A DNA stretch of 64,000 bases from a virus, in IMG/VR virus record IMGVR_UViG_3300023174_000100, positions 34,623 to 98,622 of that record. One strand, 5' to 3'. Position 1 is the stretch's first letter. Each line of letters starts with the position of its first letter. The notes under the pieces are model-generated. The model was not told the origin of the DNA and made no database searches. It saw nothing but the letters and a program-made list of their open reading frames with translations. Made by a program: the position numbers and the translations under genes. Below, piece by piece: positions 9,866-60,555 of this stretch.

Positions 9866-11362
9866 ATGAATTTTGAATTACCAAAACTAAAGAAAATAAC
9901 TAATCGTCCTAAAAAGAAAAAAATTCTACTCCTGTCGGATGATTTAAGATTAAACTCAGGTATTGGAGTAATGTCTAGGGAAATTGTAGTAGGTACAGCT
10001 AAATATTTTGATTGGGTTCAAATTGGAGCTGCTATAAAAAATCCTGATGCCGGTAAAATTATTGATGTTTCAGATGATGTTAACAAAGAAATAGGAATAG
10101 ATGACGCTAGCGTGCTTATATACCCTAATAATGGGTACGGAGATCCACACAAATTAAGAGAAATAATAACTAGAGAGTCGCCTGATGCGATTTTACATTT
10201 TACGGACCCGAGATTTTGGGAATGGCTATATGATATGGAGAGAGAAATTAGAACATCTATTCCTATTATGTATTATAATATATGGGACGATTTGCCATAT
10301 CCACATTGGAATTCTGAATTTTATGCTTCATGTGATTTCATATTTAATATATCAAAGCAAACTCATAATTTAGTTAATGTAGTATTAGAAGAAAATGAAT
10401 ATAAATATTATGATTTAGATTCTGGCGAACCAAAATCTTTTGATATAGATACAACTTACACTGCTTACATTCCTCATGGAATAAATAATAAACACATATA
10501 TAAGATTCTTCCAAGTAGCAAAGTATATGATGAATACAATGCTTATATATCTGATTTTAAAAGAGAAACGCCTACTGATTTTTTAATTTTTTGGAATAAT
10601 AGAAATATAAGAAGAAAACAACCGGGGGATGTTATTCTAGCTTTTACTAGGTTTTGCGAATATCTAAAAGATGATGATAAAGCTAGTAGATGTATTTTAG
10701 TCATGCATACAGACCCTATCGATGGAAATGGTACAGACTTAATTGCAACGGTAAAAGCTTTAAACCCAAAAGGAAAAGTCATTTTTTCTGATAAAAAAAT
10801 AGATACAAAGACACTAAATTTTTGGTATAATTTTGCGGATGTTGTTTTAAATATTGCATCTAATGAAGGATTCGGTCTTTCAGGAGCTGAAGCACTAATG
10901 GCCGGCACCCCTATTATAAATAATGTAACAGGAGGATTACAAGACCAGTGTGGTTTCATAGACAATAAAGGAAAGTACATAACATTTACAAAAGATTTCC
11001 CTACTAATCACGCAGGAACTTTTAGAAAGCATGGCGAATGGGCATTTCCAGTATTTCCTAACAATAGATCTCTACAAGGTTCACCGGCAACTCCCTATAT
11101 TTTTGATGACAGAGTATCCTTTGAGGAAGTGGCCGAGGCTATATTTTATTGGTACAAAATTCCTAGAGAAGAAAGAAAAGCATTAGGGAGCAAAGGAACG
11201 GCTTATGCTCTTGACCCGAAAGTAGGAATGTCAGCAGAGGAAATGTGTAATAGATTTATAAAAAATATCAATTTAGCTCTTGATAATTGGAAGCCGAGAT
11301 CTAGATATTCACTACATGAAATAAAACCAGAAAAAACTAATAAAGCAATAGGAATTCTATGA
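9866..11362 (+). CDS. GT-B fold glycosyltransferase (GT4-like)
   Basis: 498 residues, opening with a Rossmann start (KILLLSDDLRLNSGIGVMSREIV). The nucleotide-sugar binding signature is NEGFGLSGAEALMAGTPIIN near residues 332-351, with the E-x7-E pattern of GT4 enzymes. First gene of a run of transferases that continues to 25.1 kb. Its stop overlaps the next start by 4 bases (ATGA). Acceptor and sugar cannot be read from sequence. Confidence 0.85.
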   Translation: MNFELPKLKKITNRPKKKKILLLSDDLRLNSGIGVMSREIVVGTAKYFDWVQIGAAIKNPDAGKIIDVSDDVNKEIGIDDASVLIYPNNGYGDPHKLREIITRESPDAILHFTDPRFWEWLYDMEREIRTSIPIMYYNIWDDLPYPHWNSEFYASCDFIFNISKQTHNLVNVVLEENEYKYYDLDSGEPKSFDIDTTYTAYIPHGINNKHIYKILPSSKVYDEYNAYISDFKRETPTDFLIFWNNRNIRRKQPGDVILAFTRFCEYLKDDDKASRCILVMHTDPIDGNGTDLIATVKALNPKGKVIFSDKKIDTKTLNFWYNFADVVLNIASNEGFGLSGAEALMAGTPIINNVTGGLQDQCGFIDNKGKYITFTKDFPTNHAGTFRKHGEWAFPVFPNNRSLQGSPATPYIFDDRVSFEEVAEAIFYWYKIPREERKALGSKGTAYALDPKVGMSAEEMCNRFIKNINLALDNWKPRSRYSLHEIKPEKTNKAIGIL

Positions 11363-30102: not shown

Positions 30103-31635
30103 TTATTTGATAGTATAAATTATTTTATTTCCTTTTTCATCTACAGCTTGAATTGTTTCTATATTAACTTTTAAATTTTGTAGTGATAAAGATATAAAAG
30201 CAAGAACATCATGAACATCCGAACCATTGTTAACAAAAACACAATGATTATTAAAGAATGAATCTAGATATTCTTTATAATAATTCAATGCTACATCATA
30301 ATTTAACATGCTTTTAACTTTAAAAAATACTTTGTTTATATATATTTTTTTATAAATTCTAGGATTATTTAATTTATCTTTTTCCGGAAGAGACAATTTG
30401 TTAATATTATATAATAATGCGTTTATTTTTTTATCATTCCAAGGATGCTGCACTTTCCATAATAACGATTGTGTAGCATCTATTTCTATGGTAAGATTTC
30501 TAAATGAAGTCCTAGCTTCCGGACTAGGAATTACTGGCTCCTCAGCTTCTACAGGAGGTTTAACTGGTTCTGGTATGATAGTTTTCTTAGATAGCATTTT
30601 ATCTAGCATAGGATAACCGAAACCGTACTCAATATCTTTGCCCTCAACTCCCCCATCAGTGCTATTGGTTGCTAAGAAGGAAATTAAATCTGCTTGAGTT
30701 TTTATTTCTGGATACCACTTAAGAACATGTCCCATGGCAGCGGTTCCGTGTGGAGTAGCCATGCTTGTACCATCCCAAGAAACATAACTATTAGGGTCTT
30801 TAAAGGTAGACCAGATAGAAACACCTGGAGCTATTGCCTCTAATTCATTTCCATATTGAGAAAAATTAGCTCTTCTACCTGATTGATCACAAGCCGCCCA
30901 AGAAATTACTTCCTTATGAGCAGCAGGCCAACCTACCACTCCGCTACCGTCGTTACCGGCAGCAGCATTTACAAAGGCTCCTCTAGCAATAACTTGCTCA
31001 ATTGCTCTTGATATTGCCGGAGTTTCGCTCCCGCCTCCCCAAGAGAAATTGTAAACAAGCAAATAACCTAGTTTTTTATACTCCGTTTCCCATACATTAG
31101 CCGCATGTAAAATTGCGTTTACTAGCCAATCGGATGCGCCAGAACCATTGGAATTTAATCCCTTTTGTGCCATAATAAGATCTTCGGTAGGTACGTCTTT
31201 AACATAGGCAAGACCAAGCGGGAATCCATTAGGATGTTTCCCCATAATAGTACCTGAAACGTGGTGACCATGTCCATGACCATCGATTCCGGTTTTATCC
31301 GTAGTGTGATCCAAGCAAAACTTTTTTGGAACAAATTGATTGCCCGATAATAAATCATTGTGATTTGGATACGCCATGGTATCGACAACACAATACAATA
31401 TTTTACGAGAAGGTTTCTCACCCTTTTTTATTTTTTCAGCAATAAAATCAGTTTTCAAAAACGAATATCCCCAGTTACCATTTGATAATATACTAGATTG
31501 TAATGTTGCGTAAATAGGAGTAGGCGGTGGCGGAAGGATAATATCATGGTTTTCTCCTAAAGCATTAAAATACTTGGCTAATAGATCAAAATTAACTCTT
31601 TGTGCGAATTGTAAATCAGATACGGAAAATTTCAT
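30103..31635 (-). CDS. Subtilisin-like serine protease (S8) with extra C-terminal domain
   Basis: 510 residues. The catalytic triad is complete: D85 (CVVDTM), H122 (GHGHHVSG) and S291 (DGTSMATPHG), with oxyanion N228 (AAAGNDGSG). There is no signal peptide, so the enzyme is probably made in the host cytoplasm or packaged. Residues 370-510 form a separate domain after a Pro-rich linker (EPVKPPVEAEEP). Possible roles are cleaving host proteins or maturing phage proteins. Overlaps the upstream small gene by 4 bases. Confidence 0.92.
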   Translation of the reverse strand: MKFSVSDLQFAQRVNFDLLAKYFNALGENHDIILPPPPTPIYATLQSSILSNGNWGYSFLKTDFIAEKIKKGEKPSRKILYCVVDTMAYPNHNDLLSGNQFVPKKFCLDHTTDKTGIDGHGHGHHVSGTIMGKHPNGFPLGLAYVKDVPTEDLIMAQKGLNSNGSGASDWLVNAILHAANVWETEYKKLGYLLVYNFSWGGGSETPAISRAIEQVIARGAFVNAAAGNDGSGVVGWPAAHKEVISWAACDQSGRRANFSQYGNELEAIAPGVSIWSTFKDPNSYVSWDGTSMATPHGTAAMGHVLKWYPEIKTQADLISFLATNSTDGGVEGKDIEYGFGYPMLDKMLSKKTIIPEPVKPPVEAEEPVIPSPEARTSFRNLTIEIDATQSLLWKVQHPWNDKKINALLYNINKLSLPEKDKLNNPRIYKKIYINKVFFKVKSMLNYDVALNYYKEYLDSFFNNHCVFVNNGSDVHDVLAFISLSLQNLKVNIETIQAVDEKGNKIIYTIK

Positions 31636-31931
31636 AATAATTTTTTTACTTGAGCAATTTTTTTGAGGGCCATATAATTACCAATTAATTTTGATAAACT
31701 AAATAAAACAAGTTTAACTAATTCAAACCAGTTAATTATTTCCTCACCCTCATCATTAAATAAAACATTTCCTTGTTTGTCTGTTTTGAAAATTGTTTTA
31801 TCCATGTTCCTAAAGAAAATTTTCAGAATTTCTCTGAACATATCCTTATCTTCAAGTTTATTTACACCTAAATCTAGCATTTCATACTCAGCTAGAGATT
31901 CCTTCATTTGTTCAATTACTTTTTGGTTCAT
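31632..31931 (-). CDS. Small protein with C-terminal hydrophobic helix, unknown
   Basis: 99 residues. The last 35 residues (WFELVKLVLFSLSKLIGNYMALKK) form an amphipathic or membrane-leaning helix. It sits between the glucosaminidase and the protease. Could be a lysis accessory or protease partner; not recognised. Confidence 0.6.
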   Translation of the reverse strand: MNQKVIEQMKESLAEYEMLDLGVNKLEDKDMFREILKIFFRNMDKTIFKTDKQGNVLFNDEGEEIINWFELVKLVLFSLSKLIGNYMALKKIAQVKKLL

Positions 31932-32885: not shown

Positions 32886-33416
32886 TTACACTCTTTCAAT
32901 TCCCGGAGAATCGATGTGAGACATATCGGCTTCTTCATAAGACATAGGTTTCAACATTTTACCATCAGAGGTTCTAGATAAATAAAAATAATCTTCCCCC
33001 TCAAAATTTACAGATTTAACATCTACAGTTTCTCCTCCTTCAATCATTTGATACTTTTTTCTTACTGCTAAAACTTGAGATTCCGCCATAGTTTTTGAAG
33101 GTAAAAACTTAGAAAAATTACTTTCATTTACTCTCTGCAAAGATTCAACAACAGGTATATTCATTATCTCTAATATACCTACTAATGTGTAAATAATATC
33201 TATAGACTCTTTAGCAATATTTCTGCGGTCTAATATATCAAAATCTACATTATCTTGTAAATCGCTTTCATCAAGTACAACAAATTCATCTATAAATTCT
33301 GCGACTTCGTCCATAAACAAAGATAAAGCATTTTGTACATGTTCCACAGATTTTTCTTCATGTCGACCTAACATTTTTTGAAATTTAACAACTTGTTCTA
33401 AAGAGTCCTTTTTCAT
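32886..33416 (-). CDS. MazG-like NTP pyrophosphohydrolase
   Basis: About 176 residues from ATG 33416; a GTG at 33461 would add 15 residues but the ATG fits better. Helical all-alpha NTPase pattern: FMDEVAEFIDEF followed by NIAKESIDIIYTLVGILEIMNI gives the ExxE and ExxD metal-binding pairs. These enzymes hydrolyse nucleotide triphosphates such as modified dNTPs or (p)ppGpp. A C-terminal 50-residue extension is extra. Confidence 0.7.
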   Translation of the reverse strand: MKKDSLEQVVKFQKMLGRHEEKSVEHVQNALSLFMDEVAEFIDEFVVLDESDLQDNVDFDILDRRNIAKESIDIIYTLVGILEIMNIPVVESLQRVNESNFSKFLPSKTMAESQVLAVRKKYQMIEGGETVDVKSVNFEGEDYFYLSRTSDGKMLKPMSYEEADMSHIDSPGIERV

Positions 33417-33525
33417 TTTTAAAGATTTTGTTTTGTTATAAAAAATTTTTAGTATGCTCACATATTACGTGTGAGTTATGTTATAAAATATTACTTTGTT
33501 TGAGAGGAAATCGAAAAAGAATTAG

Positions 33526-33597
33526 TAGCGGGAGCTGGAGTCGAACTAGCAGTATAGGATCATGAGTCCTATGTGTTAACCATTACACTATCCCGCT
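33526..33597 (-). tRNA. tRNA with CAU anticodon (Met, or Ile2)
   Basis: On the minus strand: acceptor AGCGGGA/TCCCGCT (7 bp), D arm GTGT...ACAC, anticodon stem TAGGA/TCCTA with loop CTCATGA (anticodon CAT), T arm with loop TTCGACT and one A-C mismatch in its stem. No CCA is encoded. CAU could be elongator Met or lysidine-modified Ile2; sequence alone does not decide. Confidence 0.93.
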
Positions 33598-33740: not shown

Positions 33741-34097
33741 TTACCGCGCAAGTTTTTTTCTCTTTATCCAAGATTTTATTTCTTTTCTTACACTTAACTT
33801 AAAGAAATCAAAGTACACAAAAGTTTTATCTCTGATGTAAAAATTGCCATTCCATAAAGAATAACAATAGATAAAATCGTATTCTGTTATAATTCTGTTG
33901 TCTCTATCTATGTATAAATTGCTCATTAACTCGTATATAAAACTTTCTTTATTTTTCATGACTTTTCCTCCATAGGTATATACACCGTCTCGGTAAACTC
34001 CCCAGGGCCCGTAGTTAATTGATATAGAATCTTTATACTCTTGACTAAGGAGTAAAGTACTAGCTAACAATAGCAGTATAGTCAAATAAATTTTCAT
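33741..34097 (-). CDS. Small secreted protein, unknown
   Basis: About 118 residues from ATG 34097, where a signal peptide begins (MKIYLTILLLLASTLLLSQ). In-frame upstream Met codons exist but would spoil the signal. The mature part is rich in Tyr/Trp with no known domain. Next to other envelope and lysis genes. Confidence 0.65.
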   Translation of the reverse strand: MKIYLTILLLLASTLLLSQEYKDSISINYGPWGVYRDGVYTYGGKVMKNKESFIYELMSNLYIDRDNRIITEYDFIYCYSLWNGNFYIRDKTFVYFDFFKLSVRKEIKSWIKRKKLAR

Positions 34098-34160
34098 TAG
34101 TTTATTTTTTAGCATAAATATGTACTTATAGTACAATTACAAGCATTTTTTTAAACTATT

Positions 34161-34421
34161 CTACATTTTTTTATTATTCATATACTTCATGCTAATAAAT
34201 TTTCCACTAAAGCTACCCAAGATATAGGATGCTATCATGTATAAATTTCCTTGTATTAAAGCATCAATAGAAAAATATAATGATGCTAAAGATATTACGT
34301 TTATCATAATGGTATTTATCAAAGATTTAGTAATTTGATTATTATATGTATATCTTATTTCTAATGTCTTTAAAATGTTAAAAAATACTTGAAATGTAAA
34401 AAGAAGTATACAGTCAAACAT
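34161..34421 (-). CDS. Small integral membrane protein
   Basis: 86 residues with two or three hydrophobic segments (FDCILLFTFQVFFNILKTL, INVISLASLYFSIDAL, LYMIASYILGSFSGKF). Resembles small multi-pass phage membrane proteins (DUF5698-like in outline). Holin function is possible but unproven. Lies 2 bases before the metalloprotease start in the same direction of transcription. Confidence 0.65.
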   Translation of the reverse strand: MFDCILLFTFQVFFNILKTLEIRYTYNNQITKSLINTIMINVISLASLYFSIDALIQGNLYMIASYILGSFSGKFISMKYMNNKKM

Positions 34422-34423
34422 TA

Positions 34424-36295
34424 TTATTTAATTGTATTGTTTGATATAAAAATTTTCTTATAGTATTTATTATTTCCTAATAAAATATAAATTCCTGTTG
34501 CTAATTTTCTTTGTTTATCATTTAAGTCATTAATACTATTACCGGATCCCACTAAAACACCGTTAAGATTATATAGTTTCCATTCGCTAAATAAATCTGT
34601 AAATAGCATGTCATTAAAATTCAAAAACATGTTCCATCTATCAATTTGCATTTCATCATTCATCCAATCATTGTACATTATATTATCTTTGGACAGAGGT
34701 AAAAGATTTTGATTTATTTTTTTTACAGTTTGATTATTAAGACATAATTTTATTGAATCATTTGTTCTGTATACATTAGATATTTCATAAATAACAATAG
34801 AATCATGATGTATAGAAAAGTTTATTTTATTCACAAAAGGAGGCTTAGCCATATGTCTTATAGTCAAAGTAAAACAGGAGTCTTTTAAAATACAAACCGA
34901 AGTATCTTGTGTTAACCTCTTTTGATTTGGATTATACTCTAATACTATTTTATTGTTTTGTTTTATAGAATAGTAAAAATCCTCAAAAAATTTATTCGCA
35001 GAAATTTTTATATTTATCTTTGTGTAAGAAGAATCTTTACCCGGACATTCTTTACTTTCAGGCAAATATTTTTCTAGACAATTAGCGAAAGATACTTTTT
35101 GGCGTATTAAATTTCCGGGCTGCAATCCAAAGCCCCATTTATAATCTACTCCTACATTTAGATTTAAGTGACAGTAAGACATTATAGTCCCTTTTGTGTA
35201 TGGGGTAATTTCAGGAGTTTTGCAGGGAACAGGACCGGTAGGCTCTATAAACCAACAACCATCAAGCGCAGTATTATTTCCATTCCAAGAACATGATTGT
35301 GTGTGCGGAGAACCTATGTTATGCCCAATTTCATGTGTCATTACGTGAGAGTTCCAAGAATAATTCGGATAAGGTAAGGTATTCTCCGTTAATCCAGAAT
35401 AACTAGTTCTATAAAAAGGATCATCACATAATGAATTCAACCACGCAACACCAAAAGATCCTTCAAGAGATACTAATTTTCCAAAGGTTTCTGTCAAAGG
35501 TTGTTTTCTCATTTGATAACCAAAACTAAATAACATCTCATAACTATTATAAGTATACCCACTAGGAGTATCCCATATTTTTAACCTGTTTATTTTTATG
35601 TTTATTTTTTCATTCTTGTACAGTATAAAAGTTTGCGCAAATACATTCTCTATAAAACTAATTACTTTTTTAGCACTACCTAGCTTAGTATACATGCCAT
35701 AATCAGCTTCAATATACATGGTTATTAATTTATCTACAGGAGTACCTACCTTTTTATTTACTTCATTCGTAATTACACTCCCCTCCCTATCTAACATAAC
35801 ACACTTAAAATTTGTAGTATCTTTGTAATTTTCTTGATTCCACGTTCCGTAAAGCAATCCATCTACAGAAGAAAAAATCCATCCTTGGCCATCACCCATA
35901 ATATGAGAGTAGAAAACGTCTTTATCTATAACAACACTAGCAAATCCTCCATCATCTCCTCGCACTTTTCCATAGTAAACTAAACAAGTAGGTTTATGGG
36001 ATTTTCCAGAACTTGTATATATACTCGCGCTATCCGTAAATAAATCAATTCTCTCCAAATCTATAATCTCTTTTCTTTTTGGAGTAGGTAAAATAATGGA
36101 AACACTATCAGGCTTCGACTCAAAAATATAATCTACCTGGCTTTTGTTTATCATCATATATTTTACATGTTGTACCTCTTCTTCAATTAACGAAAAAAAT
36201 TCATCTTTGAAAAATATAGATACCGGATTTTCTTTTTGTGCATGTAGCGAAAAAAAGAAAAAAAACAAAGAAATAATACTAAATACTTTTTTCAT
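34424..36295 (-). CDS. Secreted zinc metalloprotease with T9SS C-terminal sorting domain
   Basis: 623 residues. N-terminal signal peptide (MKKVFSIISLFFFFFSLHAQ). The metzincin zinc site HEIGHNIGSPH is at residues 321-331, followed by a Met-turn (GTIMSYCH), as in reprolysin-like M12B/M43 proteases. The last 80 residues (LYNLNGVLVGSG, LATGIYILLGNNKYYKKIFI) match the type A sorting domain of Bacteroidota type IX secretion. The enzyme should therefore be exported to the periplasm by Sec and then carried across the outer membrane by the host T9SS. Known for host exoproteases; very unusual on a phage. Confidence 0.88.
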   Translation of the reverse strand: MKKVFSIISLFFFFFSLHAQKENPVSIFFKDEFFSLIEEEVQHVKYMMINKSQVDYIFESKPDSVSIILPTPKRKEIIDLERIDLFTDSASIYTSSGKSHKPTCLVYYGKVRGDDGGFASVVIDKDVFYSHIMGDGQGWIFSSVDGLLYGTWNQENYKDTTNFKCVMLDREGSVITNEVNKKVGTPVDKLITMYIEADYGMYTKLGSAKKVISFIENVFAQTFILYKNEKINIKINRLKIWDTPSGYTYNSYEMLFSFGYQMRKQPLTETFGKLVSLEGSFGVAWLNSLCDDPFYRTSYSGLTENTLPYPNYSWNSHVMTHEIGHNIGSPHTQSCSWNGNNTALDGCWFIEPTGPVPCKTPEITPYTKGTIMSYCHLNLNVGVDYKWGFGLQPGNLIRQKVSFANCLEKYLPESKECPGKDSSYTKINIKISANKFFEDFYYSIKQNNKIVLEYNPNQKRLTQDTSVCILKDSCFTLTIRHMAKPPFVNKINFSIHHDSIVIYEISNVYRTNDSIKLCLNNQTVKKINQNLLPLSKDNIMYNDWMNDEMQIDRWNMFLNFNDMLFTDLFSEWKLYNLNGVLVGSGNSINDLNDKQRKLATGIYILLGNNKYYKKIFISNNTIK

Positions 36296-36297
36296 TT

Positions 36298-36861
36298 TTA
36301 ACTTGGGTTTAGTTTGTAATTTTCATATAATTTTTCTAAATCCTGCATGTTAATATCACTCTTCGGCCGGGCCTGGATTAATGTACCAGTTTGCTTTATA
36401 ATCTCAATATAAGGAAGGATATCGTGGTAGTGAGCCCGATTAGTAAAGTCGTGTATTAAAATTGATTGTACGCGATTTATGACAGCTTTACAGGCACATG
36501 CTACACGAAATCTACCGTCAACTAATACAACATCAATGTTTTTGTAGTTGTCAATAGCAGAAGAATACAAAGGAAAGTTGTTTTGCTTGGTATTATTTAT
36601 CGGCCTACCCATATCTCCAGCATTAATATCAATAGCCAGGAAAGTTATATCTGGGTGGACCTTTACTTGCTCATACTGCTTAATCTCATCTATCCACATT
36701 TTTTGAGACTCTACGGAAACAATCTTCTTTGCCCCTAACTCACACGCCCGAAAAGTACTCCCCCCGCATCCAAATTCAAAATAAAAACCGCAATTCCTCA
36801 CTACATCCTCAAACATCTTTATCTCATCTTCCTTCATTAACATTTTCGGAGTCTTCTTCAT
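36298..36861 (-). CDS. Class I methyltransferase-like protein
   Basis: 187 residues. CGFYFEFGCGGSTFRACEL is motif I, KIVSVESQKMW motif II and IDVVLVDGRFRVACACKAV motif IV. Resembles small SAM-dependent methyltransferases found near sugar genes. It lies 2 bases upstream of the metalloprotease in the same direction and is the first gene of the minus-strand block. Confidence 0.7.
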   Translation of the reverse strand: MKKTPKMLMKEDEIKMFEDVVRNCGFYFEFGCGGSTFRACELGAKKIVSVESQKMWIDEIKQYEQVKVHPDITFLAIDINAGDMGRPINNTKQNNFPLYSSAIDNYKNIDVVLVDGRFRVACACKAVINRVQSILIHDFTNRAHYHDILPYIEIIKQTGTLIQARPKSDINMQDLEKLYENYKLNPS

Positions 36862-59116: not shown

Positions 59117-60112
59117 ATGAAAGTACTAATAACGGGCGTCGCAGGATTTATAGGCAGTCATCTAGCACACTCTATGTTAACCCAATGGCACAAAGTGATA
59201 GGTGTGGACTTCTTTGAGAGAAGCGATGCCCGGTTATTAAATAGAATGAGATTGGATAACCTGCATAAGACGAAGGGCATTGAGTATCACAACGTAGACA
59301 TAGCAGACAGGGATCAGGTAGAACCTATATTCTCTCTTCACAAGTTTGACATGGTTATAAATCTTGCGGGCCAGGCAGGAGTGAGATCTAGCATTAAAAA
59401 TCCGGATCTCTATGCCCGATCAAATGTCCAGGGATTTTTAACCATTATAGAAGCATGTAAGAAATATGATGTAAAGCATTTAGTGTATGCATCTAGTTCA
59501 AGTGTATATGGAATGAGAGATAACATGGATATGACATTTAGTACAGATGATAGAACGGATGGGCCAGTATCCTTTTATGCAGCGACTAAGAAGATGAATG
59601 AATTGACGGCACATGTATATAGTCATTTGTTCAACATGCGTACTACAGGTCTTAGATTCTTTACAGTGTATGGTCCATGGGGTAGACCAGATATGATGGT
59701 TTATAAATTTACATATAACATCTATAATAAGATTCCTATTGACATTTATAATCATGGAGAGATGTTTAGAGAATTTACTTACATTGATGATATTATTGAT
59801 GGGATTAATATTGTGATTAAAAATGAAACGGATGTCAAGTACATGTTATATAATATAGGTAGCAATGAGAGTATTAAGATATTAGATTTTATTGATGTCC
59901 TGGAGGAGGAGATTGGTATTGGGGCCCTGCGGAATTTTGAACGGATGCAAGACGGAGATGTTTTATTTACTGCATCTGATGTAGCCCCGCTGAAAAATCT
60001 AGGTTACGAACCAAAAGTAAAATATAGAGAAGGGATCAAACGGTTTTTAAAATGGTATGATTCGATAGACAATACAACACACCGGAAAATATTAGAACAG
60101 ACCGGTTTATAA
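59117..60112 (+). CDS. NAD-dependent sugar-nucleotide epimerase (UDP-glucuronate 4-epimerase-like)
   Basis: 331 residues of the extended SDR family. NAD-binding TGVAGFIGSH at residues 6-15, catalytic serines in YASSSSVYG (near 126) and Y154-x3-K158 (SFYAATK). QAGVRSSIKNP and FFTVYGPWGRPDM place it with UDP-glucuronate/galacturonate 4-epimerases (capI/wbpP type). It could supply an activated sugar to the transferases at 9.9-25 kb. Not in a module of the surrounding type; preceded by a tRNA remnant. Confidence 0.9.
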   Translation: MKVLITGVAGFIGSHLAHSMLTQWHKVIGVDFFERSDARLLNRMRLDNLHKTKGIEYHNVDIADRDQVEPIFSLHKFDMVINLAGQAGVRSSIKNPDLYARSNVQGFLTIIEACKKYDVKHLVYASSSSVYGMRDNMDMTFSTDDRTDGPVSFYAATKKMNELTAHVYSHLFNMRTTGLRFFTVYGPWGRPDMMVYKFTYNIYNKIPIDIYNHGEMFREFTYIDDIIDGINIVIKNETDVKYMLYNIGSNESIKILDFIDVLEEEIGIGALRNFERMQDGDVLFTASDVAPLKNLGYEPKVKYREGIKRFLKWYDSIDNTTHRKILEQTGL

Positions 60113-60201: not shown

Positions 60202-60555
60202 ATGAGAAAAATTAGTTTATGTGCTTTATTATTCGTATCTTTACTATCTTACGGCCAAACGGATAGTACAGATTGCCCGATTTATTCTATAGTCAATAAC
60301 ACGGTTTTCTTTGTGCCTGATCAAAACAAATTCGAATACGTAATTGTTAGCAGACATGATGATTTCGTAGAGACATTAAATCACATGCTAACCTTCATCA
60401 AACCGAAACAGGATAACCTTGTAGTAGCCTTTAACGGCCGGGAAGAGGAAGTGATTTACAACGACAGGAAAAAACGATACTACTTTGAAGGAGGCCACTA
60501 CAAGAATTTCGGGGACCTAATTTCGGCGGTGAAGTTCTTTTTACTAACAAATTAA
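60202..60555 (+). CDS. Small secreted protein, unknown
   Basis: 117 residues with a signal peptide (RKISLCALLFVSLLSYGQ) and polar mature part (DCPIYSIVNNTVFFVPDQN). The SLLSYGQ cleavage region is typical of Bacteroidota secreted proteins. Unknown function. Confidence 0.7.
   Translation: MRKISLCALLFVSLLSYGQTDSTDCPIYSIVNNTVFFVPDQNKFEYVIVSRHDDFVETLNHMLTFIKPKQDNLVVAFNGREEEVIYNDRKKRYYFEGGHYKNFGDLISAVKFFLLTN

Follow-up and report, generated by a model that had tools for sequence, protein, structure and literature searches.

The 64,000-nucleotide window analysed here, positions 34,623 to 98,622 of the IMG/VR virus record IMGVR_UViG_3300023174_000100, carries on its minus strand a gene whose 623-residue product is predicted from sequence to be an M12B (reprolysin-like) metzincin with proteolytic activity. 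Its C-terminal domain is homologous, though divergent, to the sorting domains of the type IX secretion system (T9SS). By its gene content the record is a T4-like phage, and the sequence features make export of the protease via the T9SS of the host well supported as a prediction. Endolysin genes accompany the protease in two phage lineages. A preliminary description of this DNA, made from the letters alone, had listed degradation of surface proteins or matrix, help in spreading and a block to superinfection as possible roles; among these, the genes around the protease speak most for lysis or release.

The open reading frame (ORF) starts with ATG and runs from 36295 to 34424; the position and length given previously were right. 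By eye, the N-terminus (MKKVFSIISLFFFFFSLHA followed by QKENP) resembles the signal peptides of Bacteroidota and has Gln at +1, the form described as the Q-rule (PMC5837995), and this Gln20 is invariant in alignment A2 of the homologues, in agreement with the Sec signal peptide proposed earlier. The zinc site HEIGHNIGSPH and the Met-turn were likewise read correctly; they lie at residues 321–331 and 369–375 (GTIMSYC), and both the zinc ligands and the Met-turn are invariant in A2. Reprolysin_5 (PF13688) matches the protease with E=2.5e-14 and 54.4 bits against a cut-off of 27, PF13583 and PF13582 exceed their cut-offs as well, and the nearest solved structures by sequence are snake-venom M12B proteases (7e-6). 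M43, the other family that had been considered, was rejected, M12B being by far the better fit. The AlphaFold2 model of the whole protein, of moderate confidence (mean predicted local distance difference test (pLDDT) score 63.7), places a prodomain at residues 46–153, the metzincin from 190, a beta domain at 424–518, a linker at 522–568 and a C-terminal domain at 572–617. Foldseek pairs this model with ADAM17 zymogens, profragilysins and snake-venom M12B proteases (E down to 1.4e-13), the matches covering both prodomain and protease of the ADAM17 zymogen and profragilysin, and because of these pairings the enzyme is probably made as a zymogen.

The case for a sorting domain comes from profile searches and from selection. 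When the whole record (98.6 kb) was searched with TIGR04183, the C-terminus of the protease was the sole match (E=5.8e-5, 20 bits vs a curated 23), and in five further records bearing the gene the sole match of each also falls on the protease C-terminus. In hhalign, a profile of seven C-termini of the phage clade aligned with one of 14 C-termini of cellular M12B homologues at a score of 30.5 (E 1.2e-5); 400 column shuffles gave a mean of 9.4 and a maximum of 18.8, none of them reaching 30.5, and the reversed profile scored 10.6. The ratio of nonsynonymous to synonymous substitution rates (dN/dS) is about 0.06–0.10 in the catalytic domain. The dN/dS of 0.16–0.42 in the C-terminal domain, against about 1 in the linker (about 0.75–2.1, residues 519–569), shows that the domain is maintained by purifying selection while the linker before it evolves neutrally. 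In the clade alignment A6, Gly-579 and one Lys in the last strand do not vary, and their match to published functional positions was judged by eye; in sorting domains, the loop that follows strand 3 and a lysine-bearing C-terminal motif are required (PMC11285876, PMC10994853).

Several results weigh against this assignment. In the protease alone, TIGR04183 matches residues 570–616 with only 17.9 bits (E=0.0023), below the curated 23, and a PF18962 search gave no match; strict membership of either family was rejected, and the domain is classed as a divergent relative rather than a formal member. It looks shortened, without the N-terminal PNP strand, and its model, which is confident for about 50 residues, shows four strands plus one helix, as against the published seven-strand (3+4) sandwich. 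Foldseek found nothing significant for this model, the sorting domains of NucA and RemZ appearing only at ranks 9 and 22. A C-terminal profile of the strict clade found no T9SS chain among PDB sequences; a wider profile, A5, does match T9SS sorting domains there, which is not independent evidence for the 623-residue protease because A5 includes canonical sorting domains. Moreover, sorting domains are not always exchangeable across species (PMC11285876). The type A sorting domain of the preliminary description thus survives as homology to T9SS sorting domains, by the hhalign score, and falls under the curated NCBIfam and Pfam cut-offs: of the two profiles suggested for checking it, TIGR04183 matches below threshold and PF18962 does not match. 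The structural check proposed there bore out the fold of metzincin zymogens for the protease part, and left the C-terminal part without a significant match.

The record contains T4-like genes for TerL, portal, head protease, major head protein, tail tube and tape measure (the tape-measure model PF20155 was uninformative as a phage marker). Its TerL is 50% identical to that of Flavobacterium phage immuto and 54.5% identical to that of Microcystis phage Mel-JY01. A second viral record is 99.7% identical over 13.9 kb across the protease locus (32 mismatches), and beyond that stretch the two records diverge; the locus is present in two non-identical viral records, and the earlier statement that the gene is phage-encoded holds. 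SD-like (Shine–Dalgarno) motifs precede 3 of 70 ORFs, and the leaders are A-rich. Scarce SD-like motifs and A-rich leaders are usual in Bacteroidota.

In the window, an endolysin-like gene shares the minus-strand operon with the protease (Table 1). Homologues of the window clade occur in ten viral records. One is nearly identical at the locus; the rest, at about 46% identity, represent a different phage lineage, because their TerL (tested in L006) has only 27% identity with that of the record. In this second lineage, 2–4 bp separate the protease from the end of the preceding GH19 endolysin of 208 aa (phrog_181, 9.8e-65, tested in L005) in each of the seven loci that were read, and an Amidase_2 endolysin, a subtilase and a small membrane protein are also nearby. 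Since the TerL proteins are unrelated (27%) yet the same protease, subtilase and membrane protein recur (L005–L012), the comparison implies that these three form a module kept across phage lineages. The small membrane protein reached only E=0.079 as a holin, an identity that we do not claim. Directly upstream of the operon, neither a T4-type late promoter (TATAAATA) nor a Bacteroidota-type promoter was seen.

Table 1. The predicted protease, its parts and the neighbouring genes, in window coordinates (aa, amino acids; TM, transmembrane)
Feature	Position	Strand	Basis
Protein of 187 aa, resembling a methyltransferase by eye only, 2 bp upstream of protease, same operon	36298..36861	-	no family match
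Predicted M12B (reprolysin-like) metzincin, probable zymogen, 623 aa, bearing a signal peptide and, at its C-terminus, a T9SS-like sorting domain	34424..36295	-	translation, PF13688, TIGR04183, AlphaFold2, Foldseek
Signal peptide, residues 1–20, Q-rule type, cleavage expected before Gln20	36236..36295	-	read by eye; Gln20 invariant in A2
Prodomain, residues 46–153, all-beta	35837..36160	-	AlphaFold2; Foldseek; dN/dS 0.06–0.13
Metzincin catalytic domain, residues 189–408	35072..35731	-	PF13688, PDB sequence match, Foldseek; dN/dS about 0.06–0.10
Zinc-binding motif HEIGHNIGSPH, residues 321–331	35303..35335	-	translation; zinc ligands invariant in A2
Middle beta-sandwich domain, residues 424–518	34742..35026	-	AlphaFold2
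Linker, residues 522–568, predicted disordered	34592..34732	-	pLDDT about 28; dN/dS about 0.75–2.1
C-terminal T9SS-like sorting domain, residues 570–623, plus stop	34424..34588	-	TIGR04183, hhalign, AlphaFold2; dN/dS 0.16–0.42
86-aa protein, two TM-like segments, 2 bp downstream of protease	34161..34421	-	hydropathy; 48–53% identity in L005–L012
131-aa protein, N-terminus also Q-rule signal peptide-like	33741..34136	-	no family match
tRNA-Met inside the protease/endolysin operon	33525..33597	-	ARAGORN
MazG-like pyrophosphohydrolase	32886..33461	-	phrog_671 3.3e-17
Endolysin-like protein (FlgJ-like, glucosaminidase type), N-terminal TM segment	31966..32883	-	phrog_18032 2.1e-6, lysis; FlgJ-like 0.012
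99-aa protein	31632..31931	-	no significant match
S8 subtilase, 510 aa, signal peptide not seen	30103..31635	-	PF00082 6.6e-29; 54–58% identity in L005–L012

More distant M12B proteases, with or without a sorting domain, are found on about 20 other viral contigs. Those of L034, L037 and L038 exceed the TIGR04183 cut-off (33.9, 48.1 and 30.6 bits, respectively); L034 and L037 are above the PF18962 cut-off as well, and L038 is just under it (26.8 vs 27). The TerL of the L038 phage is 51% identical to that of the record. In a tree of 56 catalytic domains, the window protease falls in a virus-only clade (support 100/98) within cellular diversity, and the virus label needs at least two changes, most simply eight. 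This indicates repeated capture of such proteases from Bacteroidota and relatives, and the tree supports the descent from a cellular exoprotease suggested previously. The nearest cellular homologues, from Saprospiraceae, Chitinophagales and Ignavibacteria, are exoprotease-like, and two of them end in sorting domains. A homologue at E<=1e-15 was present in 36 of the 296 genomes of the phylum sample of L014 (Bacteroidota, with Ignavibacteria). In GTDB genomes, a single-sequence search found nothing, and an alignment-based search then found three homologues. No close relative of the protease was found in cultured phages.

Two side observations concern these distant viral relatives. The isolate prophage record of L037/L088 (45,618 bases) has its M12B protease, with the 48.1-bit sorting domain, right after tail-region genes, and also contains a second TIGR04183 protein. 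The M12B-type phage proteins of L039, L042, L043, L048, L051 and L052 have Bacteroidota-type signal peptides but end without a sorting domain. Common to them is a C-terminal region of another kind (NPQP...W/CYR-S like), which may be a retention module of a different sort; L043 is without the standard zinc motif.

The reading that we favour is that a T4-like phage of a Bacteroidota host would make a zymogen M12B metalloprotease that the Sec machinery could export via the Q-rule signal peptide, after which the host T9SS would recognise the C-terminal domain and carry the protein over the outer membrane. Such routing in the real host is, judging from the sequence, very likely. The prodomain would then be removed and the enzyme would act on the cell surface or just outside, and this activation outside the cell is likely too. 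Late in infection, as the endolysin opens the wall, the protease might weaken or clear the proteins and matrix at the cell surface, which would let virions get out and avoid sticking to debris. Egress is the likeliest benefit because the protease sits in a late/lysis gene cluster; a phage-origin secreted metzincin of Listeria, which raises sensitivity to phage lysis and virion release (PMC8235301), provides a precedent, and by this analogy and the neighbourhood we put egress forward tentatively. Taken whole, from export to egress, we consider the reading evenly balanced. It is more doubtful, though conceivable, that the scheme extends to a recurring lysis component of Bacteroidota phages, in which T9SS-routed proteases would dismantle the surface from outside and endolysins the wall from inside, the protease/subtilase/membrane-protein module would move between unrelated phages, and host exoproteases would have been the source of comparable proteases on several separate occasions.

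The main rival accepts the same export and lets the protease alter surface proteins instead, by receptor shaving, superinfection exclusion or blocking the re-adsorption of progeny. Anchoring by the T9SS would place the enzyme where receptors are; T9SS cargo is either held at the outer surface or set free from it (PMC10202324, PMC10994853), and superinfection exclusion has been suggested for the T9SS cargo of Cryophage (PMC7468147). A further point for it is that other phages acquired such proteases independently and that the L038 gene lies between PhoH-like and head genes, away from lysis genes, suggesting a role not confined to lysis; the L038 location also tells against egress. However, in two lineages the protease sits in a lysis cluster, and no sequence feature indicates receptor specificity; we regard this rival as rather unlikely.

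Two further readings are each improbable, to about the same degree. On the one hand, the protease could feed or reshape the host and its community, digesting environmental protein or matrix before lysis; it would then be an auxiliary metabolic gene product derived from an exoprotease of the host. The exoprotease-like character of the nearest cellular homologues, two of them with sorting domains, fits this, as does phage cargo elsewhere that includes an endoglucanase and a GH39 enzyme (PMC7468147), but a nutritional benefit would be slow relative to a lytic cycle, and long conservation with the subtilase and lysis genes favours a function in infection. On the other hand, the C-terminal domain may no longer be a T9SS signal, leaving a Sec-only, periplasmic protease that acts on envelope proteins as part of lysis. 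Its sub-threshold score, its short form lacking the PNP strand and the many related phage proteases with a signal peptide and no sorting domain all point this way; against it stand the purifying selection behind a neutral linker, the retention of Gly-579 and the terminal-strand Lys, and the finding that the targeting signal of HBP35 lies within its last 22 residues (PMC11285876). Finally, that the locus is host DNA misjoined to a phage contig has a negligible probability: only the cellular ancestry of the protease family speaks for it, whereas phage genes flank the protease on both sides, homologues lie in other phage contigs with TerL and no cellular relative is close (best about 30%), and contamination is ruled out by the phage genes of the record and the second record, 99.7% identical over 13.9 kb. 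Neither of the results that the preliminary description had named as fatal, a C-terminus unrelated to sorting domains or a segment of host DNA, was found.

Phage-encoded T9SS cargo was already reported in 2020, and it is the lysis-linked protease form that appears to be new. In Cryophage (Bellas et al. 2020, PMC7468147), a Bacteroidetes phage, genes with type A sorting domains were described and a hijack of the host T9SS was proposed. Both Cryophage and the window phage carry genes for proteins with T9SS sorting domains, but the Cryophage cargo is an endoglucanase, a GH39 enzyme and a PA14 protein and varies between strains of one phage, whereas the window protease, a probable zymogen metalloprotease whose sorting domain is divergent and shortened, is retained next to lysis genes in phages that are unrelated to each other. 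T9SS-tagged M12B-type exoproteases of cellular Bacteroidota and Ignavibacteria (L014, L016 and several of L056–L064) share with it the signal peptide, the prodomain, the same zinc site and GTIMSYC, and several end in sorting domains; they differ in having full PNP-type sorting domains and no phage context, with about 30% identity over the N-terminal and catalytic part. The zymogens of fragilysin and ADAM17 have the prodomain and metzincin fold in common with it, a likeness in fold only, at 12–14% identity and without a T9SS domain. The Listeria Mtz/Tim pair (PMC8235301), likened by description, also involves a phage-origin secreted metzincin that aids phage lysis, but in a Gram-positive host, with the lipoprotein Tim as substrate and no T9SS. 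T9SS sorting domains have been noted in crAss-like BACON proteins (PMC6949934) and Q-rule signal peptides in P. gingivalis phages (PMC10367356). Our literature search, which left most subscription journals outside, turned up neither a T9SS-tagged phage protease nor a connection with lysis genes. The isolated remark of 2020 on Cryophage could become a recurring pattern, in which Bacteroidota phages repeatedly take up T9SS-tagged enzymes; if this is true, phages too exploit the T9SS, whose known roles lie in virulence, gliding and the digestion of polymers.

A cultured relative of the window phage offers another candidate T9SS cargo. Protein immuto136C_15 of Flavobacterium phage vB_FspM_immuto_13-6C (MW353177, L092:3692-4423) has, by profile search, a full sorting domain (46.5 bits) and a Q-rule-like signal peptide, and the gene is also present in the other immuto records. 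A tblastn search of cultured phages with a single sorting domain gave no match, but this search is insensitive and missed immuto136C_15. Like the window protease, it is predicted to be a T9SS-tagged secreted protein, but it is annotated only as a "cohesin domain-containing protein" and not as a protease. As immuto grows on Flavobacterium sp. LMO8, the use of the T9SS by phages is already testable in the laboratory. Beside it we note G019, the record of L047 (464,605 bases), with four TIGR04183 matches above the cut-off (45.7, 34.1, 32.7 and 24.8 bits); this phage is very large, and several of its proteins are candidates for T9SS cargo.

Elsewhere in the window, a 117-aa protein (60202–60555, plus strand) has a Q-rule-like signal peptide (MRKISLCALLFVSLLSYGQ...) and is likely another exported phage protein. 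Between 39400 and 45000, nine copies of a repeat of ~150 nt, spaced 540–1000 bp apart, alternate with small, partly paralogous ORFs, and related repeat families of 240 nt and 61 nt occur in the same region, one of them with a GC-rich hairpin and a T-run; the region resembles an array of small-gene cassettes. The genes at 59117–60112 and 9866–11362, both on the plus strand, are NAD-dependent epimerase/GDP-mannose-dehydratase-like and glycosyltransferase-like, which points to a possible phage-encoded glycan modification.
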